From Burkholderiales bacterium (GTDB taxonomy: Bacteria > Pseudomonadota > Gammaproteobacteria > Burkholderiales > Ga0077523), in the NCBI GenBank assembly GCA_019745565.1, contig JAIESW010000024.1:188129-252128 (forward strand): a stretch of 64,000 nt of DNA, written 5' to 3'. A program made the translations under genes and the position numbers. Under the pieces are notes generated by a model. That model was not told the origin of the DNA. It saw only the letters and a list, made by a program, of their open reading frames with translations, and did no database searches. Shown here one piece after another: positions 38,978 to 61,117 of this stretch. Every line of letters begins with the position of its first letter. Within the stretch, counting starts at the first letter, position 1.

Positions 38978-40208
38978 GTTGCAGCGTGCGCGCGGTGGCG
39001 CCCCGATGGGCCGCCGCGAACGCCGCCGCGGCCGAACTCATCCGGTCGCGCAGCGCTGCATCGGACAACACGAGCGCGGCTTGTGCCCCCAGTTCGGCGG
39101 AATCGGCCACGCGTACCGCGGCCCCCGCTTCGACCGCCAGGTCGGTCGCCTCGCTGAAGTTGAACGTGTGCGGCCCGATCAGCACCGGCCGACCCATGGC
39201 GCAGGCCTCGATGAGGTTCTGGCCACCCAGCGGCAGCAGGCTGCCGCCGATGAAGGCGACATCGCACGCACCGTAGTAGGCGAACATCTCGCCCATGCTG
39301 TCGCCGAGCACCGCGCGGACGTCGGCCGGTACCGTGTCACCCGTGCTGCGCCGTCGCCACTTCAGGCCGCGGGCATCCAGCAGCCGGGCGACTTCGTCGA
39401 ATCGCTGCGGATGGCGCGGGACGATCACCAGCAGCACATCCGGGATGCCGATCCGCTCGAAGGCATCCAGCACGAGGGGCTCTTCGCCTTCGCGCGTGCT
39501 GGCTGCCAGCAGGATGGGCCGGGACGGCCCGAAGAGGGCGCGCAATTCGCGGCCACGCGATTCCATCTCGCTGCTCGGCGCGATGTCGAACTTGAGATTG
39601 CCGGTGATCTCGACGCCCGTGGCTCCGAGGGCGGACAGGCGGCCGGCATCGGCCTGCGTCTGGGCGGCGATGCCGCGCAGCGAGCGCAACGCTGCCCGGG
39701 TGAGGCCGGCCAGTCGACCGTAGCCCCGCGCCGAGCGCTCGGACAGGCGCGCGTTCACCAGGAACAACGGGACCTGACGCTTCGCACAGGCGTGAGCGAC
39801 GTTGAACCAGATCTCGGTCTCCATCAGCACGCCGATGCTCGGGGCGAAATGATCGAGGAACCGGTTCACCGCGAACGGCAGATCGTAGGGCAGGTAGGCG
39901 CGGGCGACGCGGTCGCCGAACAACTGCTCGCCGGTGGCACGGCCGGTGGGCGTCGTGTGGGTGAGCAGGATGCGATGGTCCGGATAGCGCTCGCTGAAGG
40001 CCTTCACCAGAGGCTCAGCGGCACGGGTCTCGCCGACGGAGACCGCGTGGATCCAGATGAGGGGGGCCGCGATCTCGAACGGATAGCGCCCGAAGCGTTC
40101 CCCGACGTGCTCTAGGTATTCCGGCTGCTTGCGCGAACGTCGCCACAGGTGCCACAGCGCCCCTGGAACGAGCAGGTACAGCGCCATCGTGTAGAGAAAG
40201 CGCCGCAC
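38946..40208 (-). CDS. waaA: 3-deoxy-D-manno-octulosonic acid (Kdo) transferase
   Basis: Membrane-anchored GT-B glycosyltransferase that adds Kdo to lipid A precursor from CMP-Kdo. The 420-residue protein starts with a hydrophobic anchor (MALYLLVPGALWHLW), then AVSVGETRAAEPLV, the catalytic region LMETEIWFN and the C-terminal GGSLLPLGGQNLIEA. The start is GTG, six bases after the heptosyltransferase stop, so the two are one unit. Whether it adds one or two Kdo residues cannot be read. Confidence 0.96.
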   Translation of the reverse strand: MRRFLYTMALYLLVPGALWHLWRRSRKQPEYLEHVGERFGRYPFEIAAPLIWIHAVSVGETRAAEPLVKAFSERYPDHRILLTHTTPTGRATGEQLFGDRVARAYLPYDLPFAVNRFLDHFAPSIGVLMETEIWFNVAHACAKRQVPLFLVNARLSERSARGYGRLAGLTRAALRSLRGIAAQTQADAGRLSALGATGVEITGNLKFDIAPSSEMESRGRELRALFGPSRPILLAASTREGEEPLVLDAFERIGIPDVLLVIVPRHPQRFDEVARLLDARGLKWRRRSTGDTVPADVRAVLGDSMGEMFAYYGACDVAFIGGSLLPLGGQNLIEACAMGRPVLIGPHTFNFSEATDLAVEAGAAVRVADSAELGAQAALVLSDAALRDRMSSAAAAFAAAHRGATARTLQLIESRWSRAR

Positions 40209-40214: not shown

Positions 40215-41234
40215 CTAATTGGCGACCCTGCCGATCGCTGCGAGCACCATCGCCATCGTCGGCACTTCCTTGCCGCTGCCCACGTCCGCCGCATTCGCGC
40301 CCGCGTACACACCCGTGGCGGTGGGATCGGTGGCAACGTAGATGCCGACGGTGGGCCGCCCCAATGCCGCCGCCAGATGCACGAGCCCCGTGTCGACACC
40401 CACGACGCAGCGAGCTTTGCCCAGCAGGCCGGAGAGCGTGTGCAGGCCCAGGCGCGGCGGCACGACCGCGTTCGGCACGTCCTTCGCGATGCGGATGCTG
40501 CGCGCCTCCTCTTCCGCGCTGCCCCACGGCAGGATGCATGCGATGCCGGCGCCCCCGAAATGGGCCGCGAGCTTCTTCCACTGGTGGTCCGGCCAGAGCT
40601 TGCGCTCGGCGCTGGTGCCGTGCAGGAGCACCATGAAAGACGAGGATGGCATCCAGGCGAAGCGCTGTGTCGCGTCGAGCCAGGGGCGCCGGTCCTCGGC
40701 GGGCGAATCGTCGTCCGCCTCTCCCGGAGGAAAGGCGGGCGCGTCGATGCCGTAGTCCGGCGGACCCTCCACCGCATAGCCGAGCGCCTGGGCCGCCAGC
40801 GACCGGTTGCGTTCGACCGCGTGGCGCCCCCAAGGGACCGAATACGTACGGTCATACGCCCAGCGCAGCGGTTCGCGCGAGCTGCGCCAGTCCAGCCCGT
40901 GGCGGAAGCCCGGTGCCAAGCGCCCGATCAGCGCGCTCTTGAGGAGCCCCTGCGTATCGATCACGTGGTCATACGCGCCCTCGCGAAACACACCGCGCAA
41001 ATCACCGATCTCCTGCCACGTCGAAGGTGTCCAGAGGCGTCGCCGCCACCTTCGCGGAGCGCACGCGATCACGCGCTTGAGACCGCGATGCAGCGCCGGG
41101 ATGGCGGTGAATGCTTCCTCGACGGCCCAGTCGATGGCAACGTCCGGCAGCGCGCGCCGCAGATCGCTCACCACGGGCAGGTTGTGCACTACGTCGCCGA
41201 GCGATGACGTCTTGACGAGAAGGATGGAGGGCAC
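40215..41234 (-). CDS. waaC: Lipopolysaccharide heptosyltransferase I
   Basis: GT9-family glycosyltransferase that adds the first L-glycero-D-manno-heptose to Kdo. It has 339 residues from the GTG at 41232-41234 ([20 protein letters not shown], the exact family start). Other landmarks are [24 protein letters not shown], and the nucleotide-binding [24 protein letters not shown]. The frame is open upstream to 41354, but that would overlap gmd. Divergent from gmd, co-transcribed with waaA. Confidence 0.95.
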
Positions 41235-41285
41235 GAGGCGCAGGGAACAGGGCCCGGCGATCGATCGAATGGCAGGAGAAGTCAT

Positions 41286-41291
41286 TATAAT
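41286..41291 (+). promoter_or_regulatory. Possible -10 box for gmd
   Basis: A perfect tataat lies 31 bases before the gmd GTG, in the short divergent space between waaC and gmd. The -35 region (around 41263-41268) is weak, so this is a tentative promoter for the polysaccharide unit. Confidence 0.4.
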
Positions 41292-41322
41292 CAGCCGTCT
41301 TCCCGAACCCCGGTTTCCCTTC

Positions 41323-42408
41323 GTGAGCAAGACAGCACTCATCACCGGCATCACCGGCCAGGACGGCGCGTACCTCGCCGAGTTTCTCCTCGCGAAGGGC
41401 TATACCGTCCACGGCATCAAGCGCCGCACCTCGCTCTTCAACACCGACCGGATCGACCATCTGTATCAGGATCCGCACGTCGACAATCGCCGCTTCATCC
41501 TGCACTACGGCGACATGACGGATTCGTCGAGCCTGGTGCGGATCATCCAGCAGGTGCAGCCCGACGAGATCTACAACCTCGCAGCGCAGAGCCACGTGGC
41601 GGTGTCGTTCGAAGAACCCGAGTACACGGCCAACTCCGATGCGCTCGGCACGCTGCGGGTGCTGGAGGCGATCCGCATCCTCGGCCTCGAGCGCAAGACG
41701 CGCTTCTATCAGGCTTCGACGTCCGAACTCTACGGTCTCGTGCAGGAGATCCCGCAGAAGGAGACGACGCCGTTCTACCCGCGGTCTCCCTATGCCGTGG
41801 CCAAGCTGTACGGGTACTGGATCACGGTCAACTACCGCGAAGCCTACGGGATGTACGCGTGCAACGGCATCCTGTTCAACCATGAGTCCCCGATCCGTGG
41901 CGAGACCTTCGTCACCCGCAAGATCACCCGCGCCATGGCGCGCATCAAGCTGGGCCTGCAGGACGCGCTCTACCTGGGCAACCTGGATTCCAAGCGCGAC
42001 TGGGGCCACGCGCGCGATTACGTCGAGGCGATGTGGCTCATCCTGCAGCAGAAGGTGGCGGAGGACTTCGTCATCGCCACCGGCGAGCAGCACAGCGTTC
42101 GCGACTTCGTCGACGCTGCCGCGGCCGAGCTCGGCATGCGCATCCAGTGGCGCGGTAAGGGCGTGGAGGAGAAGGGCTACGCAGAGAACGGCAAGTGCGT
42201 CGTGGCGGTGGATCCGCGGTACTTCCGGCCGGCCGAGGTGGAAACGCTGCTCGGCGACCCGACCAAGTCGCGTACGAAGCTCGGTTGGAAGCCGAAGGTT
42301 ACTTTCCGCGAGCTGGTCGCCGAGATGGTGCGTGAGGACCTCAAGGCGGCGGAACGCGACGAACTCGTGAAGAAGCACGGGTTTGCGGCGTACGACTACC
42401 ACGAGTGA
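41323..42408 (+). CDS. gmd: GDP-mannose 4,6-dehydratase
   Basis: Converts GDP-mannose to GDP-4-keto-6-deoxymannose. It has 361 residues. NAD(P) motif GITGQDG at residues 9-15, SQAS-type catalytic [22 protein letters not shown] (Tyr-x3-Lys) and the family-specific [18 protein letters not shown]. The GTG start gives MSKTALITG. It overlaps fcl by GTGA; together they give GDP-L-fucose or a relative. It opens the left end of the O-antigen locus, divergent from the core LPS genes. Confidence 0.97.
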
Positions 42409-43382
42409 GCATGGAGCCGCAGAGCAGGGTCTACGTGGCCGGACATCGCGGGCTGGTGGGGTCTGCACTCGTCCGGCGCCTGGAAGCGGCGGGCCATCGG
42501 AGCATCCTCAAGCGGACCCACGCCGAACTGGAGCTCGGCGATGCCGCGGCTGTGCGCCGCTTCTTCGAAACCGAGAAGCCCGAATACGTGTTCCTGGCGG
42601 CAGCCAAGGTGGGCGGCATCCTGGCCAACAACACCTACCCGGCGCAGTTCATCGCCGAGAATCTTGCGATCCAGACCAACGTCATCCACGAGGCCTACCG
42701 GGCCGGCGTGAAGCGTCTGCTGTTCCTCGGCTCTTCCTGCATCTACCCGCGCGATTGCCCGCAGCCGATCAAGGAGGAATACCTTCTGACCGGGCCGCTC
42801 GAGGCCACCAACCGGCCCTATGCGATCGCCAAGATCGCCGGCATCGAGATGTGCTGGTCGTACAACCGGCAGTACGGGACGCGCTACCTGTCCGTGATGC
42901 CCACAAATCTCTACGGGCCGGGCGACAATTACGATCTACAGACTTCGCACGTGCTGCCGGCGCTGATCCGCAAGATGCATGAGGCGAAGGAGCGGGGCGA
43001 GCGCGAAGTCGTGGTGTGGGGCACGGGAACACCGCGGCGCGAGTTTCTGTATAGCGACGACATGGCTGATGCGTGCGTCATGCTGATGAACCTTCCCGAC
43101 GAGCGCTTCGACTTCATTCTTGCCCAATACCAGCCGCCGCTTATCAATGTGGGATGCGGGGAGGATGTGACTATTCGGGAGTTGGCGGAAACGGTGGCGA
43201 AGGTCGTAGGTTTCCAGGGTAAGCTCGTGTTCGATACGACCAAGCCTGATGGAACGATGCGAAAACTCTTGGACGCAGGCCGATTGCAGGAGCTCGGGTG
43301 GAAGCAACGGGTGTCGCTACATGCGGGAATTGTGTCGGCTTACTCTGCGTTCGTCAGCGATCAGTATGCCGAACTCGACTGA
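42405..43382 (+). CDS. fcl: GDP-L-fucose synthase
   Basis: Epimerase/reductase that turns the gmd product into GDP-L-fucose; 325 residues. Visible are [10 protein letters not shown] (NADP site), [24 protein letters not shown], the YAIAKIAG catalytic Tyr-Lys pair and [13 protein letters not shown]. The GTG start overlaps the gmd stop; an ATG two codons later is equally possible. Composition becomes less GC-rich in its last 250 bases, near the join to the next cassette. Confidence 0.96.
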
Positions 43383-43526: not shown

Positions 43527-44465
43527 GTGAAAATACTCGTTACAGGCGGATGCGGTTACAAGGGCAGCGTACTCGTCCCGAAACTGCTCGAGAAAGGGCA
43601 CCACGTCGTCGCGGTAGACACGATGTGGTTTGGCAACTTTCTGCGACCACACCCCAATCTCACCGTGATAGGCGGAGATGTACGGAACCCGGAGGAGGTG
43701 CCGCTCGATGGGATCGACGTCATCGTTCACCTGTCGTCCGTGGCCAACGATCCGTGTGGCGATCTCGATCCCAAGTTGACGTGGGAGGTGAGTGCGTTAG
43801 CAACGATGCAACTGGCCGACCACGCGGCGCGGCGCGGCATCAAGCAATTCATCTACGCCTCGTCCGGCAGCGTGTATGGCGTCAAGGAAGAGGATCAGGT
43901 CACCGAAGATCTGGATCTGACGCCAATCTCCGAGTACAACAAAACCAAGATGGTGGCCGAACGAGTGCTGCTAAGCTACTCGGACAAGATGTCGGTCCAG
44001 ATCGTACGGCCTGCCACCGTCTGCGGCTATTCACCGCGCATGAGACTAGATGTCTCGGTGAACATGCTGACCATGCAGGCGTTGACCAAAGGGGTGATCA
44101 CGGTCTTCGGCGGCGACCAGACACGACCCAATATCCACATGGACGACATTACCGATGTCTACCTGCACTTCCTCGACAATCCGCGGTTCACAGGAATCTA
44201 CAACGCGGGCTTCGAGAACATCTCCATTCTCGACATCGCGAAGCGTGTCACCAAGTACGTACCGGCCGAGATCAAGGTGACTGCATCAAACGACCCACGC
44301 TCCTACCGGGTGAATTCGGACAAGCTGCTTGCCACAGGGTTCAAGCCGAAAAAGACGGTCGAAGACGCTATCCGCGAGATAGTGGACAGGTATCGAGCTG
44401 GCGACATCAAGGACGACGAGCGTTTCTACAACTTGAAATGGATGCAGAAAGAGGTCGTTCGGTGA
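43527..44465 (+). CDS. NAD-dependent sugar-nucleotide epimerase/dehydratase
   Basis: Extended SDR protein, 312 residues. It starts MKILVTGGCGYKGSVLVPKLL (Rossmann motif GxxGxxG), and has catalytic SSGSVYG and YNKTK (Tyr-x3-Lys). It resembles UDP-glucose 4-epimerase-like proteins, but the substrate is unknown. The GTG start has gagga upstream. It opens a nine-gene cassette in which successive genes overlap or nearly abut; it overlaps the SIS gene by GTGA, implying a coupled step on the same or a related sugar. Confidence 0.9.
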   Translation: MKILVTGGCGYKGSVLVPKLLEKGHHVVAVDTMWFGNFLRPHPNLTVIGGDVRNPEEVPLDGIDVIVHLSSVANDPCGDLDPKLTWEVSALATMQLADHAARRGIKQFIYASSGSVYGVKEEDQVTEDLDLTPISEYNKTKMVAERVLLSYSDKMSVQIVRPATVCGYSPRMRLDVSVNMLTMQALTKGVITVFGGDQTRPNIHMDDITDVYLHFLDNPRFTGIYNAGFENISILDIAKRVTKYVPAEIKVTASNDPRSYRVNSDKLLATGFKPKKTVEDAIREIVDRYRAGDIKDDERFYNLKWMQKEVVR

Positions 44466-45043
44466 CTGCAGCGAATCGGTTCTCCGACTACTCGCAGCGT
44501 TTGCAGGCCGTTCTTGCCGCCTCCGACTGGTCCGGTGTGGCGCAGCTCGCCGAAGATCTACTGGATTGCTGGAAGACTCGTCGACAGGTCTTCCTTTGCG
44601 GCAACGGCGGCAGCGCCGGCAACGCGGTGCATCTCGCAAATGATTTTCTGTACGGGATCTCGAAACAGAAGGGGTCGGCACTGCGGGTGACCGCGCTCCC
44701 CGCCAACGGGGCGGTGATGACCTGCTTGGCGAACGACGAGGGCTACGACAGCATCTTCTCGCTTCAACTCGCCGTGCTGGCCAACCCGGGCGACGTCTTG
44801 ATCGCATTGTCGGGCAGCGGCAATTCGCCCAACATCGTCAAGGTGCTCGAGCAGGCCCGGGAGATGGGTGTGCGTTCGTATGCGATCCTCGGATACTCCG
44901 GCGGCAAGGCGAAGGAGCTTGCGAACGTGCCGCTGCACTTCGCTGTGGATGACATGCAGATCTCAGAGGACTTGCAACTGATCGTCGGGCACATGGTCAT
45001 GCAGTGGCTGTACGAGCGCCGGGAGCAGGCGGGACGGCCGTGA
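44462..45043 (+). CDS. SIS-domain sugar-phosphate isomerase (GmhA-like)
   Basis: A 193-residue SIS-fold protein. FLCGNGGSAGNAVHLANDF and ALSGSGNSPNIVKVLEQA are the phosphate-sugar binding loops of the phosphoheptose isomerase (GmhA) family; in GmhA this enzyme turns sedoheptulose 7-phosphate into heptose 7-phosphate. The start is GTG within the epimerase stop overlap. The adjacent split transketolase, which can make sedoheptulose 7-phosphate, fits a heptose-like role, but no heptose kinase of the GHMP type and no nucleotidyltransferase is seen in this cassette. Confidence 0.88.
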   Translation: MTAANRFSDYSQRLQAVLAASDWSGVAQLAEDLLDCWKTRRQVFLCGNGGSAGNAVHLANDFLYGISKQKGSALRVTALPANGAVMTCLANDEGYDSIFSLQLAVLANPGDVLIALSGSGNSPNIVKVLEQAREMGVRSYAILGYSGGKAKELANVPLHFAVDDMQISEDLQLIVGHMVMQWLYERREQAGRP

Positions 45044-46038
45044 GCATGCGATCGAAGGTACTCGTCATCGGCAGCAACTCCTTTTCCGGGGCCAGCTTCG
45101 TCCACTACCTGCTCGAGCAGGGCGAAGCGGTCATCGGGACAAGTCGATCGCCAGAGCCTCATCGCGCCTTCCTGCCCTATCGCTGGCATGACAAGGCCGA
45201 CCGCTTCACCTTTTACAACTACGACCTGAACCGCGATCTGGACGAGATCATGGCGCTGGTCCGGAAGGAGCGACCGGCGGTCGTGGTGAACTTCGCCGCG
45301 CAGAGCATGGTGGCGGAGAGCTGGAAGAACCCGGATCATTGGTTCATGACGAACGTCGTCTCGACCGTGCGGCTGCACGAACGGCTTCGGCACTGCGATT
45401 TCCTGGAGAAATACGTACACGTGACCACGCCGGAGGTCTATGGCAGCACGAGCGGCTTCATCAAGGAAGATACGGTTTTCAACCCGAGCACGCCTTACGC
45501 AGTGTCGCGCGCTGCGGCTGATATGAGCTTGAGGACATTTTTCGATGCCTACAAGTTTCCCGTGGTGTTCACCCGCGCGGCCAACGTGTATGGGCCGGGG
45601 CAGCAGCTGTATCGGATCATTCCGCGCACCATTCTGTTCATCCTGCTCGGTCGGAAGCTGCAGCTGCATGGAGGTGGTCATTCCCGGCGATCCTTCATTC
45701 ACATGAACGACGTGTCCAACGCGACCTGGCGTGTCGCGCTCGAAGGAGAAGCCGGCAACACGTACCACATTTCCACCGACGAGATCGTCACTGTCCGCGA
45801 GCTGGTGGAACGCATCTGCGCGAAACTCGGCGCGGATTTCACCACCTGCGTGGAAGTGGTCGGTGAACGCCTGGGCAAGGATGCCGCCTACATGCTAGAC
45901 AGCAGCAAGCTGCGTCAAGCCCTGGGGTGGCGCGACGAAGTCCCGTTGGAGCAGGGGTTGGACGACTGCATTGCCTGGGTCAAGACGAATCTGGAAAGTC
46001 TGAAAACCGGCCCTTTCGACTACTTACACAAACCCTGA
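45040..46038 (+). CDS. SDR-family sugar-nucleotide dehydratase/epimerase
   Basis: Extended SDR of 332 residues resembling dTDP-glucose/GDP-mannose 4,6-dehydratases: VLVIGSNSFSGASFVHYLL (Rossmann), VVNFAAQSMVAESW, TTPEVYGST (Thr-x-Glu, dehydratase type) and ANVYGPGQQLYRIIPR. The catalytic pair reads YAVSR, with Arg where Lys is normal. The Rossmann glycine pattern is also atypical (GSNSFSG). The GTG overlaps the SIS stop; an ATG two codons later is possible. The substrate may be the NDP form of the cassette's sugar. Confidence 0.88.
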   Translation: MSMRSKVLVIGSNSFSGASFVHYLLEQGEAVIGTSRSPEPHRAFLPYRWHDKADRFTFYNYDLNRDLDEIMALVRKERPAVVVNFAAQSMVAESWKNPDHWFMTNVVSTVRLHERLRHCDFLEKYVHVTTPEVYGSTSGFIKEDTVFNPSTPYAVSRAAADMSLRTFFDAYKFPVVFTRAANVYGPGQQLYRIIPRTILFILLGRKLQLHGGGHSRRSFIHMNDVSNATWRVALEGEAGNTYHISTDEIVTVRELVERICAKLGADFTTCVEVVGERLGKDAAYMLDSSKLRQALGWRDEVPLEQGLDDCIAWVKTNLESLKTGPFDYLHKP

Positions 46039-46065
46039 ACCCGGTTCCGATCGCAGGCATCCAGA

Positions 46066-46887
46066 GTGAACATAGACGAACTGCAAAGCCTCGCCCGCAC
46101 GGTCCGCGCACGAGTGATTTCCACTTCGAGCCGGACGCAAACGCCGCACCTGGGTTCCTGCCTGTCGTGCGTGGACATCCTCGTGGCTGCCTATTTCCAC
46201 GGCTTGCACCTGGAGCCGAAGAAGCCACGCGACGCGGACCGTGACCGCTTCATCCTGAGCAAGGGGCACGGCGCGCCGGCCTTGTTTCAGGTGCTCGCGA
46301 TGCGGGGCTTCTATCCCGAGTCCCTGCTGGACTCCTACGGCGAGGACGGTGGTCTGTTTGCGGAGCATCCTCCCGCACCGAAGCATCTCCCGGGAATCGA
46401 AGCGGCGACGGGCTCGCTGGGGCACGGCCTGCCGATGGGATTGGGGATGGCGCTGGCGGCACGTATTCAGAAGCGCGACTACCGGGTGATTGCGCTCCTG
46501 AGCGATGGGGAATGCAACGAGGGTTCCGTGTGGGAAGCGGCGATGATGGCGGGCGCACAGAAGATCGGAAATCTGATGGTCGTCGTGGACTTCAACAAGT
46601 GGCAAGCGACGGGCCGCAGCGAAGATATCCTCGCGCTCAGCCCGCTTGCAGACAAATGGCGCGCGTTCGGTTGGGATGCGACCGAGATCGACGGCCATGA
46701 CATGCGGGCACTGATGGAGATCATGTCTCGCCCGCTTCGGAACAGGGACAAACCGCTGGCCTTCATCGCGCACACCGTGAAGGGCAAGGGTGTGTCGTTC
46801 ATGGAGGACGACAACAACTGGCACTACCGAATCCCGAATGACGAGGAAGTATTGCGGGCGCATCGGGAATTGGGGGTAACGCCATGA
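46066..46887 (+). CDS. Transketolase, N-terminal (ThDP-binding) subunit
   Basis: A 273-residue protein equal to the N-terminal third of transketolase. It has the KGHG segment, GIEAATGSLGHGLPMGLGMALA, and the ThDP/Mg motif SDGECNEGSVWEA...VVDFNKWQ (Gly-Asp-Gly replaced by Ser-Asp-Gly). The GTG start follows the SDR gene after 27 bases; the stop overlaps the C-terminal subunit gene by ATGA. Split transketolases occur in archaea and in bacterial secondary-metabolite or polysaccharide clusters. It would move a two-carbon ketol unit onto or off a sugar of the cassette; this is not the housekeeping enzyme, which is one chain in most bacteria. Confidence 0.93.
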   Translation: MNIDELQSLARTVRARVISTSSRTQTPHLGSCLSCVDILVAAYFHGLHLEPKKPRDADRDRFILSKGHGAPALFQVLAMRGFYPESLLDSYGEDGGLFAEHPPAPKHLPGIEAATGSLGHGLPMGLGMALAARIQKRDYRVIALLSDGECNEGSVWEAAMMAGAQKIGNLMVVVDFNKWQATGRSEDILALSPLADKWRAFGWDATEIDGHDMRALMEIMSRPLRNRDKPLAFIAHTVKGKGVSFMEDDNNWHYRIPNDEEVLRAHRELGVTP

Positions 46888-47816
46888 GAAACGCGTTTGC
46901 CGACGAGATCACCAAGCTTGGAATGGCCGACCCGCGCGTGGTTTTGCTTTCGGGCGACATCGGCAACAAGTTGTTCGACAAGTTCAAACAGCACAACGAA
47001 GAGCGCTTCTTCAATTGTGGCGTGGCCGAAGCCAACATGATGGGTGTGGCTGCCGGCATGGCGTTGTCCGGTCAGCGCCCGGTCATCTACACCATCACCC
47101 CTTTCACCACCACGCGTTGCTACGAGCAGATCCGAGTGGACGCGTGTTACCACAATGCGCCGGTGATCATAGTCGGCACCGGATCAGGTTTGTCTTACGC
47201 CGAGCTGGGGCCAACCCACCACTCGTGCGAAGACCTGGCGATCATGCGCGTGCTACCGAACCTCACCGTCCTGGCCCCGGCGGATGAGGTGGAGCTGCGT
47301 CTGTGTCTGCGGGCAGCCCTGGAGCTGGACGGTCCTACCTACATGCGTATCGGCAAGAAGGGTGAACCGGTCAACCACAGCACACCTCCGGCGTTCGCGA
47401 TCGGTCGCGCAATTACCGTCCGCGACGGTACCGACGCATGCCTCATCAGCACCGGTACCGTGCTTGCCGTCGCCACCGGAGCCGCCGACATCCTCGCCGC
47501 CCAGGGTATTCGTGCCAGGGTGGAGAGCTTCCACACCGTGAAGCCGTTGGACCAGGACACGTTGAGCGAAGTATTCGAGCGGTTCGCCGTGGTTGGCGTG
47601 GTGGAGGAGCACAGCCGCATCGGTGGACTCGGCGGTGCCGTCGCCGAATGGCTCGCGGCTCGTGGTGGAGCCCGCGGCCGGCTGGTCAGCTTCGGGACTT
47701 CGGACGAATTCATGCCGGAGATCGGTTCCCAGCACTATGCGCGGGCCCGCTATGGCCTCACCGCGAAGAACATCGCCGGGAAGTTGGCCGACGTACTCCA
47801 TCACTCGGGCTTATGA
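46884..47816 (+). CDS. Transketolase, C-terminal (pyrimidine-binding) subunit
   Basis: A 310-residue partner of the preceding gene, with the Pyr domain holding the catalytic Glu in FFNCGVAEANMMGVAAGMAL, the YTITPFTTTRCYEQIR segment, and a C-terminal transketolase_C domain (LISTGTVLAVATGAADIL...VKPLDQDTL). Both halves together match a complete enzyme. It overlaps the HAD gene by ATGA. The complete overlap chain makes equal expression with the isomerase and SDR genes likely. Confidence 0.93.
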   Translation: MRNAFADEITKLGMADPRVVLLSGDIGNKLFDKFKQHNEERFFNCGVAEANMMGVAAGMALSGQRPVIYTITPFTTTRCYEQIRVDACYHNAPVIIVGTGSGLSYAELGPTHHSCEDLAIMRVLPNLTVLAPADEVELRLCLRAALELDGPTYMRIGKKGEPVNHSTPPAFAIGRAITVRDGTDACLISTGTVLAVATGAADILAAQGIRARVESFHTVKPLDQDTLSEVFERFAVVGVVEEHSRIGGLGGAVAEWLAARGGARGRLVSFGTSDEFMPEIGSQHYARARYGLTAKNIAGKLADVLHHSGL

Positions 47817-48445
47817 CCCGCCCGGGCGGAATGCTGATCGGCCTCGACTTCGACAACACGATCGTCAGCTACGACGTACTGTTTCACCGCGCTGCTCAGG
47901 AGAAGGGGTTGATCCCTGATGGGATCGTCGAGTCCAAGCTCGCGGTTCGCGACTACTTGCGCCGCTTGGACCGCGAGGACGAGTGGACGGAGCTGCAAGG
48001 CTATGTCTATGGTGCGCGCATGGCGGATGCGCGGGCATATGAAGGCGTGATTGACTTCATGCGAGAGGCGCGACGACAGGGAGCTCTCGTGGCGATCGTT
48101 AGTCACAAGACGAAGCACCCTTTCCGCGGACCCCAGTACGATTTGCACGAAGCCGCGCGAGCCTGGGTGACGACACAGCTGGTCGGGGCCGGTCTCATCG
48201 AAGCGCAGGAGGTGTTCTTCGAACTTACCAAGGAGGCCAAACTGCGCCGCGTCGGTGCGCTGGGTTGCGACTACTTCATCGATGATTTGCCCGAGATCCT
48301 GTCGGCGCCGGCATTCCCGGCTACTACCACGGGCATCCTGTTCGATCCCGACTATGCGCATGCGCAGTCGGGCGGCAAGTTGAGATTCACCTCTTGGGGG
48401 GAGATCGCCCACTACTTCGAGCCGCTATGGACGGCGAGTCGCTAA
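47813..48445 (+). CDS. HAD-superfamily phosphatase-like protein
   Basis: A 210-residue HAD-fold protein. The nucleophile motif reads LIGLDFDNTIVSYD (Asp-x-Asp-x-Thr), motif II is IVSHKTKHP (Ser then Lys) and motif III/IV is CDYFIDDLPEIL (Asp-Asp), so it is likely an active phosphatase. It lacks the Cys zinc loop of heptose bisphosphatase GmhB and is not close to it by eye. It sits between transketolase and a kinase-like gene, overlapping both, and so could remove a phosphate from the cassette's sugar phosphate. Confidence 0.86.
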   Translation: MTRPGGMLIGLDFDNTIVSYDVLFHRAAQEKGLIPDGIVESKLAVRDYLRRLDREDEWTELQGYVYGARMADARAYEGVIDFMREARRQGALVAIVSHKTKHPFRGPQYDLHEAARAWVTTQLVGAGLIEAQEVFFELTKEAKLRRVGALGCDYFIDDLPEILSAPAFPATTTGILFDPDYAHAQSGGKLRFTSWGEIAHYFEPLWTASR

Positions 48446-49461
48446 CCGATGTTATGCGTGAGCTGCTTCTCCGCGCGGGGCTCGACGCAAGCGACGTGAC
48501 GGTCCAGCCCCTGGCCGGAGGCGGCAACAACCGGGTGTTCGTCGTGAAGTCGGGCAACTGCAGCTATCTCGCCAAGGTCTATTTCAGCCATCCGTCGGAC
48601 GATCGCGATCGTCTCGGCGCAGAGTGGGACCTGCTGTCGTTGGCTTGGGACGCCGGACTGCGCTGCGTTCCGCGGCCGGTCGCAAGTGACCGCCACCATC
48701 ACCTCGGTCTCTACGAGTTCGTCGAAGGCAGGAAGGTCGGTGACGCCGAAGTCACGCAGGATTTCACCGAGCAGGCGCTGACATTCTTCGTGCGATTGAA
48801 CGACCGGCGCATTCGCCAGCACGCTGGCGGCCTGCGCAACGCTTCGGAAGCGTGCTTCGCGATCGAGGATCATCTTGATCTGCTGGATCGCCGCCTGCAG
48901 CGCTTGAGCGCGGCAGCAGCGATTTCCGAAATCGACCAGGAGGCAGAGGCCTTCGTCCACAAGCTGCGCGCGGCTTGGCGGCTTGTCCGCAGCGACTTGA
49001 TGCGGCGTTGCGATGCGGGAGCGCTGACGACGGTCTTGCCCTCGGAGGACCGGTGCGTCTCGCCATCGGACTTCGGTTTCCACAATGCCTTGTTGCGGCC
49101 ATCCGGCGAGCTTTGCTTCATCGACTTCGAGTACGCCGGCTGGGACGACCCAGCAAAGGCGGTCGGCGATTTCTTCTGCCAGCCGGCCATCCCGGTTCCG
49201 CTCCGATACTTCGATGCGTTCGTGTCGCACGCTTTCGGTTATTCCTCCAATCCCGAGAGTCTGGAACTCCGCGCGCGGCTGTTGTTGCCGGTATTCCAGT
49301 TCAAGTGGTGCTGCATCATGCTCAACGAATTCCTGCCAGATGCCGCGCAGCGCCGGCGATTTGCGGATCCGGGCATGGACCCTGAGCGACGCAAGCGCAA
49401 TCAGCTCGACAAGGCACATCGCTATTTTCAATCCACGGTCGGTGAATCATGGCCTACATAG
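48427..49461 (+). CDS. Aminoglycoside-phosphotransferase-fold kinase (APH family)
   Basis: A 344-residue protein of the APH/choline kinase fold. Features include a Gly-rich loop PLAGGGNNRVFVVKSG with a following ATP-site Lys (YLAKVYF), a catalytic-loop motif SPSDFGFHNALL (Asp and Asn), and CFIDFEYAGWDDPAKAVGDF (metal Asp). Such proteins in sugar loci phosphorylate sugars or small alcohols; resistance is unlikely here. The ATG lies inside the HAD gene, whose stop it overlaps by 19 bases; its own stop overlaps the methyltransferase start. Confidence 0.86.
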   Translation: MDGESLTDVMRELLLRAGLDASDVTVQPLAGGGNNRVFVVKSGNCSYLAKVYFSHPSDDRDRLGAEWDLLSLAWDAGLRCVPRPVASDRHHHLGLYEFVEGRKVGDAEVTQDFTEQALTFFVRLNDRRIRQHAGGLRNASEACFAIEDHLDLLDRRLQRLSAAAAISEIDQEAEAFVHKLRAAWRLVRSDLMRRCDAGALTTVLPSEDRCVSPSDFGFHNALLRPSGELCFIDFEYAGWDDPAKAVGDFFCQPAIPVPLRYFDAFVSHAFGYSSNPESLELRARLLLPVFQFKWCCIMLNEFLPDAAQRRRFADPGMDPERRKRNQLDKAHRYFQSTVGESWPT

Positions 49462-50120
49462 ACTTTCTGTCCGCTGTTCACAAGAGCACCACCCGGGACT
49501 ACCTCGCGCGCGTCAACGATCCCGACTATCCGAAGGCCAAAGCGGCCGAGTTGGCGAAGCAATGGGGCTACGACTACTGGGACGGCGACCGCCGCATCAA
49601 CTACGGCGGGTACAAGTACCTGCCGGGCCGCTGGGAGAAGGTGGCGCGTGCCATGGCCGACCGCTACGGCATCAAGGCCGGCGACAAGATCCTGGATGTG
49701 GGATGCGGAAAGGGATTCCTGCTCTACGACTGGACTCTGGTGATACCCGGTGTGGAGGTCTATGGTCTGGACGTATCGACCTACGCAATCGAGAACTCGA
49801 AGGACGAAGTCAGGTCACGGCTCCAGGTCGGCAACGCAAACGCTCTGCCATTTCCCGATGATCATTTTGACCTTGTCTACTCCATCAACACCTTACACAA
49901 TCTGCATAACTACGATCTGGACCGGGCGTTACGCGAGATCCAACGAGTAGGCCGACAGCATAAGTACATCTGCGTAGAGTCGTATCGGAACGAGGTGGAG
50001 AAGGCGAATCTGCTCTATTGGCAGGTGACGTGCGAGGCCTTCTGCACCCCCGAAGAGTGGGAATGGTGGTTCCAGCTCACCGGCTACACCGGTGACCATT
50101 CGTTCATCTATTTCGAGTAG
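49449..50120 (+). CDS. Class I SAM-dependent methyltransferase
   Basis: A 223-residue cytosolic methyltransferase with motif I KILDVGCGKGFLLYDW (about residues 80-95), VYGLDVSTYAI, and the post-I segment NANALPFPDDHFDLVYSINTLHNL. The N-terminal 70 residues (WGYDYWDGDRRINYGGYKYL) are not part of the core fold and may form a substrate-specific cap. Sugar O- or N-methylation in the polysaccharide is the likely role. It lies between the kinase and dehydrogenase genes in the same chain. Confidence 0.88.
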   Translation: MAYIDFLSAVHKSTTRDYLARVNDPDYPKAKAAELAKQWGYDYWDGDRRINYGGYKYLPGRWEKVARAMADRYGIKAGDKILDVGCGKGFLLYDWTLVIPGVEVYGLDVSTYAIENSKDEVRSRLQVGNANALPFPDDHFDLVYSINTLHNLHNYDLDRALREIQRVGRQHKYICVESYRNEVEKANLLYWQVTCEAFCTPEEWEWWFQLTGYTGDHSFIYFE

Positions 50121-50126
50121 CCTGAC

Positions 50127-51182
50127 ATGGAGCTTCCCGATACCACCAAAGCGGCGATTCTGGTCGGACTCAACCAGCCTCTGGTCGTGGACGACGTCGC
50201 TCTGCCGCGCACGCTCGAACCCGGGCAGGTGCTGGTACGCGTCCACTACAGCGGGATCTGCGGTTCTCAACTCGGCGAGATCGACGGTGCGAAGGGCGAG
50301 GACAAGTTCCTCCCGCACCTGCTCGGTCACGAGGGCTCCGGAGTGGTCGAGGCGATCGGACCCGCGGTGCGCTTCGCAAAGCCCGGCGACCGGGTGGTCC
50401 TGCACTGGCGCAAGAGCCAGGGTATCGAGGCAGCTCCGCCAAAATACAGCTGGCGCGGCAAGCCGCTCAATGCCGGATGGGTGACCACCTTCAACCGGCA
50501 CGCCATCGTTTCCGAGAATCGTCTGACGCGTATCGACGACTCGTGCGACATGCAGGTGGCCGCCCTCTACGGCTGCGCGGTAACGACCGGTTTCGGCGTC
50601 GCCGAGAACAACGCCAAGATCCGGTTCGGCGAGTCCGTCGTCGTCTTCGGGGCGGGTGGTGTCGGTCTCAACATCATCCAGGCTGCAGCGCTGCTCTCCG
50701 CTTACCCGATCGTCGCGGTCGACCTGCACGGCAATCGGCTCGAACTCGCGAGGCGCCTGGGGGCTACGCACACGATCGACTCGTCTTCGGTGGACGCAAG
50801 GGAATCCCTCATCCGGATTCTCGGTGCCCAGGGCGCGGATGTCTTCGTCGACAATACCGGACAGCCGGCGATCATCGAACTGGGCTACGAGCTGACCAAG
50901 GCGCAAGGTCGAGTGGTCCTGGTCGGTGTACCGCGCAAGGGCAAGACGATCAACATCTACTCGCTGCCTTTGCACTTCGGTAAGACGATCAGCGGATCGC
51001 ACGGGGGTGAGGCGATCCCGCATCTGGACATCCCGCGCTATCAGAAGCTTCTGGACGCGGGGCGCATTCAGCTGCAACCCCTGATAACCGACCTGTTCGG
51101 TCTCGGCGAGATCAACGACGCCATCGCGGGCATGCGCAACGGGACCATCACGGGAAGATGCCTTGTGAACATGGCCAGCTGA
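50127..51182 (+). CDS. Zinc-type alcohol dehydrogenase family protein
   Basis: Medium-chain dehydrogenase of 351 residues. It has the catalytic-zinc Cys in YSGICGSQLGEIDG, GHEGSGVVEAIG, and the cofactor motif GAGGVGLNIIQAA at about 175. The Cys-rich structural-zinc loop of typical ADHs is missing: the corresponding stretch (VVLHWRKSQGIEAAPPKYSW) has none. This resembles sugar- or polyol-acting members. It is the last gene of the cassette that began at 43527. Its role may be reduction or oxidation of a keto sugar; unproven. Confidence 0.88.
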   Translation: MELPDTTKAAILVGLNQPLVVDDVALPRTLEPGQVLVRVHYSGICGSQLGEIDGAKGEDKFLPHLLGHEGSGVVEAIGPAVRFAKPGDRVVLHWRKSQGIEAAPPKYSWRGKPLNAGWVTTFNRHAIVSENRLTRIDDSCDMQVAALYGCAVTTGFGVAENNAKIRFGESVVVFGAGGVGLNIIQAAALLSAYPIVAVDLHGNRLELARRLGATHTIDSSSVDARESLIRILGAQGADVFVDNTGQPAIIELGYELTKAQGRVVLVGVPRKGKTINIYSLPLHFGKTISGSHGGEAIPHLDIPRYQKLLDAGRIQLQPLITDLFGLGEINDAIAGMRNGTITGRCLVNMAS

Positions 51183-51198: not shown

Positions 51199-52197
51199 GT
51201 GCGGGTAACCAGGGATGCGAGCGGCGAGATCATGAGCGAGTCCGTCTACGGTTTCATCGACTACGGCATCACGCCCTATGCTCTTGGGGATACGTTCACG
51301 CTGCTCATGAACCTGGAGGTTGAGCGGCTGGTTCGAGACAAGTCGGACATTGCCCAGTTCGTCCTGTCCGATCCGCGCGCGCCGAACTCCCGCCTGCAGC
51401 CGTTCATCAACACGAACAATTTCCGCAACTTTCTGATCGAACTGTTTCCCGCCTATCTGTTCTCGCCCAGCACGTCGCGCTGGACCTTCACCGAGGATCG
51501 ATCCTACTTCTACCATCAGCTCGTCTCCCGTTTTCTCAAACGCCAGGCGATTTGGCCGAGTCTCCTCACTCAGGCGCGTGGTGCCATCGACTTCTTTTCT
51601 CACCGCGCGATCAATCGATTCTTCGAACGGCACGGGCATTTGCCCAAACTCGCACCGCCGGAGGATTTGCGCAAGCGGGCCATCGTACATCTGGCGCGAC
51701 TGTTTCCCGGAAGGCAGGTAGTCACCGTCAACCTCCGCAACAGCAAGAGCGGCTACTTCTTCACCGCGCCGCATCGCGAAGCCGCGATTCCGGAGTGGGA
51801 TGCGTTCTTCTCCATGGCGTCGCAGTCGCACCCCCACGTGGCCTTCCTCATCGTCGGCTCGTTCAACGAATGGAACAGGTCGGTTCTGGGCCATCCGAAT
51901 GTGACCGTCGCACGGCGCGTGGGGCTGACGCTCGCGGACGAACTGGCGATCTTGATGCAGAGTCGCGCCTTCATGGGATCGTCCAGCGGCTTCTCCGCGC
52001 TCGCGACGTTTTCCTCGGTGCCGTACGTGATCACCAATTTCGAGGCCGGTGCCGCCAAGTACGTCGGGCTCGAGGTCGGCGCCCGACGCTACCCGTTTGC
52101 GACCGAGCACCAGGTCATTCTCTGGGGCAAAGAGGAAGCGAGCGTGCTGCACCGGCAGTTGAGCGAGCACATGGCCGGGTCGGCGCAACTCACGTGA
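51199..52197 (+). CDS. Unrecognised protein, possible GT-B glycosyltransferase
   Basis: A 332-residue cytosolic protein without a clear family. The C-terminal half looks like a Rossmann-type domain: QVVTVNLRNSKSGYF, VAFLIVGSFNEWNRSV, ADELAILMQSRAFMGSSSGFSALATFSSVPYVITNFE. The GSSSGFSALA block followed by an Asn-rich loop recalls the donor-site region of fucosyltransferase-like GT-B enzymes. The start is GTG; an ATG at 51232 removes eleven residues. It lies 16 bases from the dehydrogenase and overlaps the next gene by GTGA. It is the best candidate glycosyltransferase in this part of the locus. Confidence 0.7.
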   Translation: MRVTRDASGEIMSESVYGFIDYGITPYALGDTFTLLMNLEVERLVRDKSDIAQFVLSDPRAPNSRLQPFINTNNFRNFLIELFPAYLFSPSTSRWTFTEDRSYFYHQLVSRFLKRQAIWPSLLTQARGAIDFFSHRAINRFFERHGHLPKLAPPEDLRKRAIVHLARLFPGRQVVTVNLRNSKSGYFFTAPHREAAIPEWDAFFSMASQSHPHVAFLIVGSFNEWNRSVLGHPNVTVARRVGLTLADELAILMQSRAFMGSSSGFSALATFSSVPYVITNFEAGAAKYVGLEVGARRYPFATEHQVILWGKEEASVLHRQLSEHMAGSAQLT

Positions 52198-53120
52198 GCA
52201 ACCGCCCGATTCTCATCGTCGTCCTGGCTGCACGGGCACTGGGCTCGCTGCGCCGGATCTACCGCCTGGTGTCGCGGACCGCGATGTTTCGCATGATGGC
52301 GTTCTTCTTCAGGGCCGCCCAGTTCGAACTGGGGGAGCGGCGCGCCGGATCCGAGAAGCAAAGGCTGACGATGGAGCTCGACGCCTCCGCGTCGGTGGAG
52401 ACCGGCGTTGTGGTGCTCGAACGGGCGGCAGAGGAGCAAACGGTGGGGCAGGTATGGTATCGCCTGAGCGTTTCCCGCGATTTGTCCGCCTTCGGAAGGT
52501 TGCCCGAGTCGTTCGCCCTGCTGTCTCTTGCGACGCGCACGCGGGGCATCGTCATCGATACGAACGGTGCGAATGACTCGACGGTCCCGCGGGCAAGGGC
52601 CGTTCCCGGGACAGACGTGTCGTTCGATGCGCTGCTGCATATGGCTGTTCGCGATGCACAGTCCCCTTTGCTCACCAAAGCGTTCTACCAGAGCGAGATC
52701 GCCCCGAACGACTATCTCAAGCGTGTTTGCGGACTGAGAAAGGCGGTGATGGTCTCGCTGCCCTCCGGCGTTTCTGCGCCGGTCTGGGAACGTGTGAAGG
52801 AGACGGTGTGCGCCATCTCGGGACGACGGGCGGACCAACTGTTCTTCCTGGTGGAAGGATTCGCGATCGGCTTCGATACCGGGTACGGCGTGCAGCCGAT
52901 CGAACCGCTCGGATTCACGACTCTCGAACGCATGGCGCTGGCGCGCAACGTGGACTTTCTCGTGTCCGACCGTTTCCTCTACATCCTCTCGGCCTTGTCC
53001 AAGGACGTCGACATCGTCGTACCGAAGGAACCCGTGGTGCCGGTCGCGGGAGCCGCGATCGTATTCGACGTGTACCGCAACGGTACCGCCGCATTGCCGG
53101 TCAGAACTGGAAGTAGATGA
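52194..53120 (+). CDS. Unrecognised protein in O-antigen locus
   Basis: A 308-residue protein starting MSNRPILIVVLAARALGS; the first 20 residues are hydrophobic and may be an anchor or a beta strand. The rest has mixed alpha/beta character, with an Ala/Val-rich middle (ASASVETGVVVLERAAEE), FDALLHMAVRDAQSPLLTKAFYQS, and a stretch with LSDRFLYILSALSKDVDIVVPKEP that resembles the donor-binding end of a glycosyltransferase. I do not recognise the family. The GTG overlaps the preceding stop; the 3' end overlaps the converging MBOAT gene by 20 bases. Confidence 0.68.
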   Translation: MSNRPILIVVLAARALGSLRRIYRLVSRTAMFRMMAFFFRAAQFELGERRAGSEKQRLTMELDASASVETGVVVLERAAEEQTVGQVWYRLSVSRDLSAFGRLPESFALLSLATRTRGIVIDTNGANDSTVPRARAVPGTDVSFDALLHMAVRDAQSPLLTKAFYQSEIAPNDYLKRVCGLRKAVMVSLPSGVSAPVWERVKETVCAISGRRADQLFFLVEGFAIGFDTGYGVQPIEPLGFTTLERMALARNVDFLVSDRFLYILSALSKDVDIVVPKEPVVPVAGAAIVFDVYRNGTAALPVRTGSR

Positions 53121-54525
53121 ATTGCTTGGCACCAAGGTTGCCGAGGAGGAGCGTCGAATAGAACAGTGCGAGATACGCCGTCCACCGTGCAGCCGTGCTG
53201 GCAGCAAAGCGTTGTCGCAACGCATCGCTGCCGTGCCAGAAGTGTTCGACGACCAGGAGCAACAAGCTCGCCAGCATGCCGACGTTGAGATAGCCCAGCG
53301 TGTCCTTGACCCAGCGACCGGCCATCAGGCCAAAGACGTAGTGTTCCTCGATCTTGGTGAGTATTCCGACTGCGGACGTGACCGAATCGGCGCGGAAGAA
53401 CACCCAGGTAATCGCGATGAGATTGAAGGTCAGAAAGATCCGCAGGGGCTTCAGTGCCCGCATCCCCAGAGTCCGCGGAAAGAGCGCGGTCAGTGCCTCG
53501 TTCAGCAGATAGAAGCAGGCGTTGAGCAAGCCCCACACGAGGAACGTCCAATTCGCGCCGTGCCAAATGCCGCTCAAGGCGAACACGATGAAGACTGCCG
53601 CCGTCCGCCCGCCCCACGCTTGAGTGCTCCGGAGCGGCTTGTAGACGTAGTCGCGAAACCAGGAAGTCAGCGAGATGTGCCAGCGCCGCCAGAAGTCGGC
53701 TACGCCGTCTGCCAGATAAGGCGAGCGGAAGTTCACGGCAAGATCGACGCCGAGGAGTTTCGCACTACCGCGCGCGATGTCCGTATACCCGGAGAAATCG
53801 GCGTAGATCTGAAAAGCGAAAGCGTAGGTGGCCAGCAGCAGCGAGGAACCGCTGACTTCTTCCCACGACCCGTAGCATCGGTCGACGTAGACGGCAAGAT
53901 TGTCCGCGATGACGAGCTTCTTGAAGAATCCGATGAGGATCAACAGAAAACCGTCCCGTGCCTGCGCGTAGGAAAAACTGGCCCGCTGGCGCAATTGATG
54001 AATCAGATGGCCGGCGCGTTCGATCGGGCCTGCCACGATCTGGGGGAAGTACGCGATGAACAGCGCGAAGTAGCCCAGGTGATTCTCGGGCTTCACCCGC
54101 TTGTGATATACGTCGAGCGTGTAGCTCATCGCCTGGAAAGTGTGGAAGGAGATTCCAAGCGGCAGAACGATGTCGGCCAAGGGGACGTGTCCTGAAAGCC
54201 CGGACCGGGCGATCAGCTCGTTGACTTGGGCCGCACCGAAGTTGTAGTACTTGAAGAAGAAGAGCATCGACAGGTTCGCGGCGATGCTGCCGGCGAGCCA
54301 TGCTCTTCGCGCGCGCAGAGTCGGCGCGGCGGCAATTCTCTTCCCGGCGAAGAAGTCGACAATCGTGAGTACGACCATGATCAACGCGTACTCGACTTTC
54401 CAGAACGCGTAGAACACGTAGCTCACGAAGAGCAGGAACGCCCAGCGCCACCGGGCGGGGATAGCCCAGAACGCGATGAACACCAAGGGAAGGAAGACGA
54501 GGTACTCTAGTGACGTGAAGATCAT
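53101..54525 (-). CDS. MBOAT family O-acyltransferase (AlgI-like)
   Basis: A 474-residue membrane-bound O-acyltransferase with about ten hydrophobic segments. Landmarks are MIFTSLEYLVFLPLVFIAFW, FFFKYYNFG, PLGISFHTFQAMSYTLDVY, the RSPYLADGVADFWRRWHISLTSWFRDYVY block and the catalytic His in ALSGIWHGANWTFLVWGLLNA. AlgI-type proteins carry acetyl groups across the inner membrane for polysaccharide acetylation. I chose the ATG at 54525; the open frame upstream lacks family sequence. It diverges from an SGNH protein that would complete the transfer. Confidence 0.93.
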   Translation of the reverse strand: MIFTSLEYLVFLPLVFIAFWAIPARWRWAFLLFVSYVFYAFWKVEYALIMVVLTIVDFFAGKRIAAAPTLRARRAWLAGSIAANLSMLFFFKYYNFGAAQVNELIARSGLSGHVPLADIVLPLGISFHTFQAMSYTLDVYHKRVKPENHLGYFALFIAYFPQIVAGPIERAGHLIHQLRQRASFSYAQARDGFLLILIGFFKKLVIADNLAVYVDRCYGSWEEVSGSSLLLATYAFAFQIYADFSGYTDIARGSAKLLGVDLAVNFRSPYLADGVADFWRRWHISLTSWFRDYVYKPLRSTQAWGGRTAAVFIVFALSGIWHGANWTFLVWGLLNACFYLLNEALTALFPRTLGMRALKPLRIFLTFNLIAITWVFFRADSVTSAVGILTKIEEHYVFGLMAGRWVKDTLGYLNVGMLASLLLLVVEHFWHGSDALRQRFAASTAARWTAYLALFYSTLLLGNLGAKQFIYFQF

Positions 54526-54702
54526 TGTGGTAGCTGCGCTGGCAGGCGGTCCTGCGTTTGCCGGGCGTCGGGAGCAGGGGCCGGACGATCGGGGCAGGAT
54601 GATACAGGGCACACCCAGTGTGATGCCCGGTGCGGTCGGAGCTGCCCGAGGGCTGTCGACGAACAGGTGCGGTGCTCCGACCGAAATCGTGCGAGACCGG
54701 AA

Positions 54703-58051: not shown

Positions 58052-58818
58052 AAGTCGTCATCCTGGCCGGAGGACTGGGCACCCGGATCAGCGAGGAAAC
58101 CACGGTCCGGCCCAAGCCGATGGTCGACATCGGCGGGCGGCCCGTCCTGTGGCACATCATGAAGATGTACTCTGCGCACGGCTTGAACGATTTCGTGATC
58201 TGCCTGGGTTACAAGGGCTACATGATCAAGGAGTACTTTGCGAACTACTACCTCCACATGTCGGACGTTACCTTCGACATGTCCTCGAACAAGATGGAGG
58301 TGCACCAGAACTCGGCCGAGCCGTGGCGCGTGACGCTGGTCGATACGGGGGAGCAGACCATGACCGGTGGACGCCTGAAGCGGGTGGCCCGCTATCTGGA
58401 CGACGAGGACTTTTGCTTCACCTATGGCGATGGACTGGCCGATATCGACCTGCAGGCGCTGATCGAGTTTCACCACGGTCAGCGGACTCTCGCGACGGTC
58501 ACTGCCGTGCAGCCTCCAGGCCGGTTCGGCGCGCTGGACCTGCAGGAGAACAAGATCCGGAGCTTTCAGGAAAAGCCGCAGGGCGATGGCGGATGGGTCA
58601 GCGGCGGATTCTTCGTTCTGTCTCGCGCCGTTCTCGACTACCTCGATGGCGACGAGACGGTATGGGAGCGTGCACCGATGCAGCGGCTCGCGAGCGAAGG
58701 TCAGCTGTCAGCCTATCTCCACACCGGGTTCTGGCAGCCGATGGACACGCTGCGCGACAAGGTGCTGCTGGAGGATCTTTGGAGTTCCGGCCGAGCTCCG
58801 TGGAAGGCATGGGACTGA
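58048..58818 (+). CDS. rfbF: Glucose-1-phosphate cytidylyltransferase
   Basis: Makes CDP-glucose from glucose 1-phosphate and CTP. It has 256 residues, the normal length. The N-terminal motif [28 protein letters not shown] is diagnostic; [12 protein letters not shown] carries the metal Asp, and [15 protein letters not shown] follows. The GTG start lies in an overlap with the wzt stop, and its stop overlaps the rfbG start by ten bases. It commits glucose to the CDP-6-deoxyhexose branch used by the genes after it. Confidence 0.96.
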
Positions 58819-61111: not shown

Positions 61112-61117
61112 GGGCGC

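Follow-up and report, generated by a model that had tools for sequence, protein, structure and literature searches.

A recurrent nine-gene sugar cassette with a split transketolase in a Burkholderiales bacterium, and its possible role in making an unusual surface sugar

In a 64,000-nucleotide stretch of contig JAIESW010000024.1 from a Burkholderiales bacterium (hereafter the window), it was found that nine intact open reading frames (ORFs) form a sugar cassette at positions 43527-51182, built around a split transketolase (TK). The ORFs lie on one strand, are tightly packed, and have zero internal stops according to an ORF check of the window. The cassette probably makes and activates one unusual nucleotide-activated sugar for a surface polysaccharide. 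I tentatively propose, at slightly less than even odds, that it represents an undescribed but widespread pathway. In this pathway, a split TK altered for a ketone or another non-standard acceptor would give a C2-branched or higher-carbon sugar, and heptose-like enzymes would activate this sugar for surface polysaccharides. Such a cassette had been proposed in a sequence-only reading of the window and proved to be real. Pfam supports all of its proteins but the HAD-fold phosphatase, which was identified by its motifs and a structural model.

The run opens with an NAD-dependent epimerase-like short-chain dehydrogenase/reductase (SDR; 43527..44465; PF01370, E 3e-35) with an intact YxxxK motif, followed by a GmhA-like SIS-domain sugar-phosphate isomerase (44462..45043; SIS_2, E 3e-23; TIGR00441, 112 bits) and an RmlB-like SDR of the dehydratase/reductase type with a Tyr-x3-Arg motif (45046..46038; PF16363, E 1e-50). 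The two TK halves are adjacent ORFs inside this sugar cluster and overlap by 4 bases: TK-N, the thiamine diphosphate (ThDP)-binding half (46066..46887; PF00456, E 1.5e-34), and TK-C (46884..47816; PF02779/PF02780). Next come the HAD-fold phosphatase (47831..48445, with a possible start at 47813; motifs, AlphaFold and Foldseek, no Pfam match), a small-molecule kinase of the APH/choline-kinase fold (48427..49461; PF01636, E 3e-11), a class I S-adenosylmethionine (SAM) methyltransferase (49449..50120; PF13847, E 2e-21), and a medium-chain dehydrogenase (50127..51182; PF08240/PF00107), all on the plus strand. The junctions, in order, measure -4, +2, +27, -4, +14, -19, -13, and +6 bases, and the TK-C/HAD junction of +14 becomes -4 if the HAD ORF starts at 47813. 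The ORFs had been described as mostly overlapping at start and stop codons; half of the junctions or slightly more do overlap, but the others are merely very close.

Judged from its residues, the cassette TK is catalytically complete and has a changed acceptor pocket. The closest solved chains are 6yak, the N-terminal half of a split TK, for TK-N and 6yaj for TK-C. In the numbering of Escherichia coli TktA, the ThDP-binding and catalytic residues H26, H66, D155, E160, N185, H261, E411, and H473 are invariant in 75 cassette TK relatives, and residue 100 is His in 58 and Gln in 17 of the 75. The canonical acceptor-site residues are altered: H461 is replaced by Gly in 74/74, D469 by Leu in 71/74, R520 by Lys in 74/74, and S385 by Lys or Arg in 72/74, the S385 column being one that aligns unstably in a small alignment. 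F434 is replaced by Ile in all 74. Positions 461 and 469 correspond to Gly100 and Leu108 of TK-C, and both E. coli TktA and the Carboxydothermus split TK retain H461 and D469. Positions 358, 385, 461, 469, and 520 presumably touch the acceptor phosphate and the C2 hydroxyl in the E. coli and yeast enzymes. A Leu at 469 is also present in split TKs encoded beside FGGY kinases, including those of E. coli SE15 aptA/aptB (genes named in PMC13001218), but positions 461 and 520 differ there.

In an IQ-TREE phylogeny, the cassette TKs cluster with split TKs from sugar loci including rfbF-rfbG (CDP-glucose 4,6-dehydratase) operons, with an ultrafast bootstrap (UFBoot) value of 86. These split TKs come from Azospirillum (UFBoot 100 with the argentinense plasmid copy), Methylovirgula, and Paenibacillus. 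A sister relationship between the cassette TKs and the FGGY-linked TKs, as given by FastTree, was dropped; IQ-TREE puts other split TKs between them.

Split TKs were observed in several plasmid settings. On a Methylovirgula sp. HY1 plasmid (L109 2773-8748), rfbF, rfbG, a reductase gene, and rfbH are followed by a split TK pair, so that the operon looks yersiniose-like with TK in the place of YerE. On a Paenibacillus cellulosilyticus plasmid (L014 6882-9712), an SDR-TK-N fusion lies beside rfbF-rfbG. Two Streptomyces plasmids (L106 and L107) have a split TK in a cluster of the LysW/amino-acid-carrier type with aminotransferase and GNAT genes. Solidesulfovibrio carbinolicus plasmid pDCAR1 (L010) has two different split TKs within a single pseudaminic-acid-type locus, and one of the two lies beside HAD and APH genes.

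How common is the cassette? Scanning the GTDB contig collection yielded 499 relatives, and the locus counts given here cover the best 80. The exact nine-gene order, whose recurrence across genomes the sequence-only reading had suggested looking for, was found in 25 of these 80 loci, and most of the others hold rearranged, largely complete sets. Among the 80, both TK halves occur in 74, APH in 78, the dehydrogenase and the SDR in 68 each, the methyltransferase in 67, the epimerase in 61, and SIS in 39. This conserved order strongly supports the view that the genes are a dedicated sugar cassette. Versions of it span Proteobacteria, Verrucomicrobia, Planctomycetes, Chlamydiae, and Cyanobacteria, and it is present in plant- and water-associated bacteria. 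Named carriers include Herbaspirillum huttiense (L041, a complete chromosome), H. rhizosphaerae, Thalassospira alkalitolerans (L059), an Azospirillum, and a Polynucleobacter (L099). Rearranged versions were found in Jezberella, Phreatobacter, Marivibrio, Verrucomicrobia, Gemmataceae, Chlamydiae, Marinimicrobia, and Oscillatoriales, and some metagenome-bin titles in the collection look misassigned (for example, "Bordetella parapertussis" and "Akkermansia muciniphila"). Since the order is kept across phyla, including in the named isolates L041, L059, and L099, chance adjacency or a contig artefact was ruled out.

Among 274 class genomes, the window genome being one of them, 8 have relatives of the HAD gene, and three besides the window genome hold the full set of nine in unchanged order, at 43-78% identity. 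Within the genus, 12 genomes including that of the window were searched and the HAD gene turned up in 2; the second copy is only 56% identical. The G+C content of the cassette is 61.2%, compared with 66.2% over the window's first 36.9 kb. Both the lower G+C content and the sparse distribution in the genus fit horizontal transfer. On comparative grounds, the cassette is inherited as one unit that apparently moves horizontally. TK, HAD, and APH form its tightest core across loci, and HAD and APH are a single fused protein in several clades. Six HAD-APH loci have no TK nearby, and each of these genomes has a related split TK elsewhere; it is clearly of the cassette type in two (57-61% identity), and the other four have 40-47% relatives carrying D469L and R520K. 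The methyltransferase is strongly conserved, with 74-84% identity in close relatives. The phage collection gave only distant TK matches, at 35-38% identity among the matches listed.

It had also been stated that the set has no heptose kinase or nucleotidyltransferase. The statement holds for the nine genes themselves but misleads as to the locus, because an HldE-like gene and an NTP_transferase gene are located outside the window at C95:259043-261225, 7 kb beyond the window end and some 20 kb past the dehydrogenase gene on its downstream side. The HldE-like protein has a CTP_transferase-like domain first and then a PfkB kinase domain, which is the reverse of the HldE order, and it retains the HPGH and GAGD motifs. 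Such proteins match both the TIGR02198 and TIGR02199 domains below the cut-offs (181 vs 345 and 62 vs 181.5 bits, respectively). The HldE-like and NTP_transferase genes directly follow the dehydrogenase gene in L034 and L059 and are nearby in L036, L038, L041, and L043, while non-proteobacterial cassettes have a more distant HldE-like gene within the run. HldE-like matches were found in 6 of the class genomes and HAD matches in 8, with 5 shared, all three counts including the window genome; the hypergeometric p value is 7.7e-7 with the query genome excluded, each search having covered 274 genomes, and the two samples being taken as identical on the basis of the same handles for the listed genomes. 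This co-occurrence test, which covered the HldE-like gene, argues against that gene being an unrelated neighbour. Since both genes are linked to the cassette, a heptose-type activation route is possible. L043 has a near-canonical GmhA beside HldE and NTP_transferase, and the window genome has a canonical heptose-kinase domain elsewhere.

As for the other enzymes, the YxxxK motif of the epimerase is conserved (K in 42/42 aligned sequences). The SIS protein retains the phosphate-binding serines 55, 119, 121, and 124 in 34/34 aligned sequences, as well as H61 and H180. It departs from GmhA by E65D and Q172E in 34/34, and its TIGR00441 score of 112 bits is below the cut-off of 209.45. In GmhA, E65 and a His have been proposed as the catalytic pair (PMC5387315). 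In this genome, with a completeness of 92.6%, no clear GmhA-like gene other than the cassette SIS (C95:232686-233135) was found, and for this reason the SIS protein might also take part in core heptose synthesis. The RmlB-like SDR has TIGR01181 as its best family (212 bits vs a cut-off of 365). Its Tyr-x3-Arg motif, noted already in the sequence-only reading, is real and conserved: Arg replaces the catalytic Lys in 43 of 47 aligned sequences, and the TPEVYG motif is also conserved. In the HAD protein, D6, D8, S91, K137, D151, and D152 are invariant among relatives, the AlphaFold model has a mean predicted local distance difference test (pLDDT) score of 96.3, and the Foldseek matches are HAD phosphatases. 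The APH protein has a conserved SPSDFGFHN...DFEY motif and a model with a pLDDT of 94; Foldseek matched it to choline kinases and APH folds, with N-acetylhexosamine 1-kinase lower down. A sequence search of the PDB gave no useful match for either protein, and the fold searches gave only broad superfamily matches without a substrate hint. The dehydrogenase had been described as lacking the zinc loop. The structural-zinc lobe is indeed absent, but the catalytic-zinc ligands are kept (Cys45 and His68 invariant in 69 sequences, Cys150 present in 56/69).

What does the cassette make? The reading I favour, at a probability of about 0.4, is that a dedicated C2-transfer step by the TK leads to a branched or otherwise non-standard nucleotide-activated sugar, with the product and the order of steps as I infer them. 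The SIS isomerase would convert a ketose phosphate to an aldose phosphate in the style of the heptose pathway, and the HldE-like protein, the HAD phosphatase, and the nucleotidyltransferases would carry out anomeric phosphorylation, removal of the terminal phosphate, and nucleotide transfer. The RmlB-like SDR, the epimerase, and the zinc dehydrogenase may create, invert, or reduce keto groups. The TK would move a two-carbon ketol unit onto a keto sugar to give a C2-branched (tertiary-alcohol) sugar, which the methyltransferase may cap. For the APH kinase, often fused to HAD, a swap of the terminal for the anomeric phosphate is the most natural guess. Transfer of a two-carbon unit to a branched sugar, one of two options raised from the letters alone, is thus the favoured candidate. 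It is supported by the shared gene order, the link to the HldE-like gene, the altered TK residues, and the grouping with TKs of CDP-sugar operons. Further support comes from the D469L change seen also in AptB, which acts in the catabolism of the branched sugar apiose, and from the proposal that split TKs add the C2 branches of miharamycin and amipurimycin (PMC12247030).

Several points weigh against this reading. R358, K/R385, and K520 keep a positive charge at the phosphate site, which also fits a phosphorylated acceptor before nucleotide activation. The nodes joining the cassette TKs to the CDP-sugar TKs are moderately supported (UFBoot 75-86; FastTree 0.71-0.83). In view of the tight TK-HAD-APH core, the TK may act at the sugar-phosphate level, and the residue pattern cannot show ketone acceptance. 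The TK step proposed for miharamycin and amipurimycin is itself unproven (PMC12247030). The split TK relatives in CDP-sugar operons suggest a TK step after nucleotide activation, while the tight grouping of TK with HAD and APH and the positive charges kept in the pocket suggest one before it.

Alternatively, the TK might add two carbons to an aldose phosphate and so give a higher ketose phosphate, such as octulose 8-phosphate, which SIS would isomerise and the HldE-like protein, HAD, and nucleotidyltransferase would activate, giving an unbranched octose or another higher sugar. There is a precedent, as LmbR and LmbN construct the C8 sugar of lincomycin (PMC7014725). The kept phosphate-binding serines of SIS, the TK-HAD-APH core, and the positively charged pocket formed by R358, K/R385, and K520 agree with such a route. 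However, an aldose acceptor would use Asp469, which is lost, and the nearest split TKs include those of CDP-keto-sugar operons. Asp469 aligns with a residue that I take to touch the acceptor C2 hydroxyl in canonical enzymes. I place this route second, at roughly half the weight of branch formation. Local supply of a heptulose phosphate, the other option raised at the outset, comes third and is unlikely. Here the TK would only boost sedoheptulose 7-phosphate, SIS, the HldE-like protein, and HAD would replace GmhA, HldE, and GmhB, and the other enzymes would modify the heptose. The linked HldE-like kinase and nucleotidyltransferase domains, the fact that no other clear GmhA-like gene than SIS was found in the genome, and the L043 arrangement speak for it. 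It is disfavoured by the full-length TKs elsewhere in the same genome, by the near-universal replacement of His461 and Asp469 among relatives, by the E65 and Q172 differences of SIS, and by the heptose-family scores of SIS and the HldE-like protein under the curated cut-offs. The altered acceptor site, the grouping with CDP-operon TKs, and the full-length TKs already present are the reasons why dedicated C2 transfer is preferred over heptulose supply.

Slightly less likely still is a ketose, a branched pentose of the apiose kind, or a cyclitol, for which dihydroxyacetone phosphate or a similar small phosphorylated ketone would receive the ketol unit from the TK, with activation of the product by SIS, HAD, the APH kinase, and a nucleotidyltransferase. 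D469L is shared with AptB, the APH fold includes an anomeric kinase for N-acetylhexosamine, and HAD and APH are often fused, but AptAB-type enzymes differ at 461 and 520, and the linked HldE-like gene suggests a larger sugar. AptA/AptB, a split TK pair for apiose catabolism with Leu in place of Asp469, also differ from the cassette in being catabolic and in lying beside an FGGY kinase and transporters; no FGGY kinase was found among the neighbouring genes of the cassette that were scanned.

I compared the cassette with other known systems. The ADP- and GDP-heptose pathways (GmhA, HldE or HddA, GmhB, HldE or HddC) share SIS and HAD proteins with it, and the HldE-like and NTP_transferase genes are in the same locus. 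However, the cassette adds a split TK, an APH-fold kinase, an RmlB-like SDR, a zinc dehydrogenase, and a methyltransferase; its isomerase has E65D and Q172E, the HldE-like domains are reversed, and the scores are below the family cut-offs. In yersiniose-type systems, too, keto-sugar SDRs of a polysaccharide locus are accompanied by a ThDP enzyme, but YerE is of the decarboxylase class (PMC12247030). The best families of the cassette ThDP enzyme are transketolase, not decarboxylase, and it would take a ketose donor rather than pyruvate. In miharamycin and amipurimycin biosynthesis, a split-gene TK is proposed to add a C2 branch (PMC12247030); those TKs belong to Streptomyces natural-product clusters, and the cassette TK to a polysaccharide locus with heptose-type enzymes. 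The lincosamide octose pathway (LmbR, LmbN, and later enzymes) also forms a C-C bond before isomerisation and nucleotide activation, but it uses a transaldolase and its product is an antibiotic sugar. The wps-2 exopolysaccharide cluster of Actinoplanes missouriensis, in the part of the description seen (PMC13390465), resembles the cassette in having a split TK pair inside a polysaccharide gene cluster and differs by DegT aminotransferases; that part does not mention SIS, HAD, or APH genes and does not study the TK function. The Coxiella virenose/dihydrohydroxystreptose locus and Leptospira rfb loci, weighed as places where such a set might already be known, were rejected, since literature searches gave no TK link.

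No description of the nine-gene set was found in open-access full texts, and this is weak evidence of absence; the sequence-only reading likewise knew of no described pathway with this composition. ThDP enzymes shown to form tertiary alcohols are YerE-type decarboxylases and alpha-keto-acid dehydrogenases, while split TKs are only proposed to do so (miharamycin, amipurimycin, and 13 Streptomyces sequences; PMC12247030). If branch formation is true, the cassette offers a testable case of this proposed but unproven TK reaction and would be the first shown TK-made branched sugar in bacterial glycans. It would also give a gene signature for a branched or higher-carbon sugar that present genome annotation does not predict, and point glycan chemists to strains worth analysing.

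The surrounding locus looks like a lipopolysaccharide (LPS)/O-polysaccharide locus with ABC-type export. A Kdo transferase gene (38946-40208, minus strand) and a heptosyltransferase-family gene (40215-41354, minus strand) adjoin the cassette upstream, placing it beside LPS-core genes. Between them and the cassette are genes for a GDP-mannose 4,6-dehydratase (41323..42408, plus strand; PF16363, E 1.6e-159) and a GDP-L-fucose-synthase-type SDR (42405..43382, plus strand; PF01370, E 1e-67). This gmd/fcl pair (41323-43382) was set aside as a separate GDP-sugar pair, as just 1 of the 80 loci has it next to the cassette. The next gene in the run after the dehydrogenase (51199..52197, plus strand) is of unassigned family and possibly encodes a glycosyltransferase; its protein has zero matches in Pfam, NCBIfam, and PHROG, and relatives at 24-34% identity lie near some cassette loci. 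Further downstream are an ABC-2 permease gene (from 55838) and an ABC ATPase gene with a Wzt C-terminal domain (from 56771).

Other genes in or near cassette loci were also observed. An MBOAT acyltransferase gene (53101-54612, minus strand) lies beside a gene for a 364-residue protein on the plus strand, and the two (53101-55761) are perhaps a polysaccharide O-acetylation pair. An SDR, a C-methyltransferase (Methyltransf_13/14), and a PhyH dioxygenase are encoded at 58149-62543, and a further methyltransferase gene follows. The first three suggest that the locus also specifies a second sugar, one with a C-methyl branch. In L096 and L100 (Oscillatoriales) and in L062 and L077 (Marinimicrobia), the cassette is likewise found together with a gene for a PhyH-like dioxygenase. 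In L020 and L021, radical SAM/SPASM proteins that are 54% identical to each other adjoin partial cassettes.

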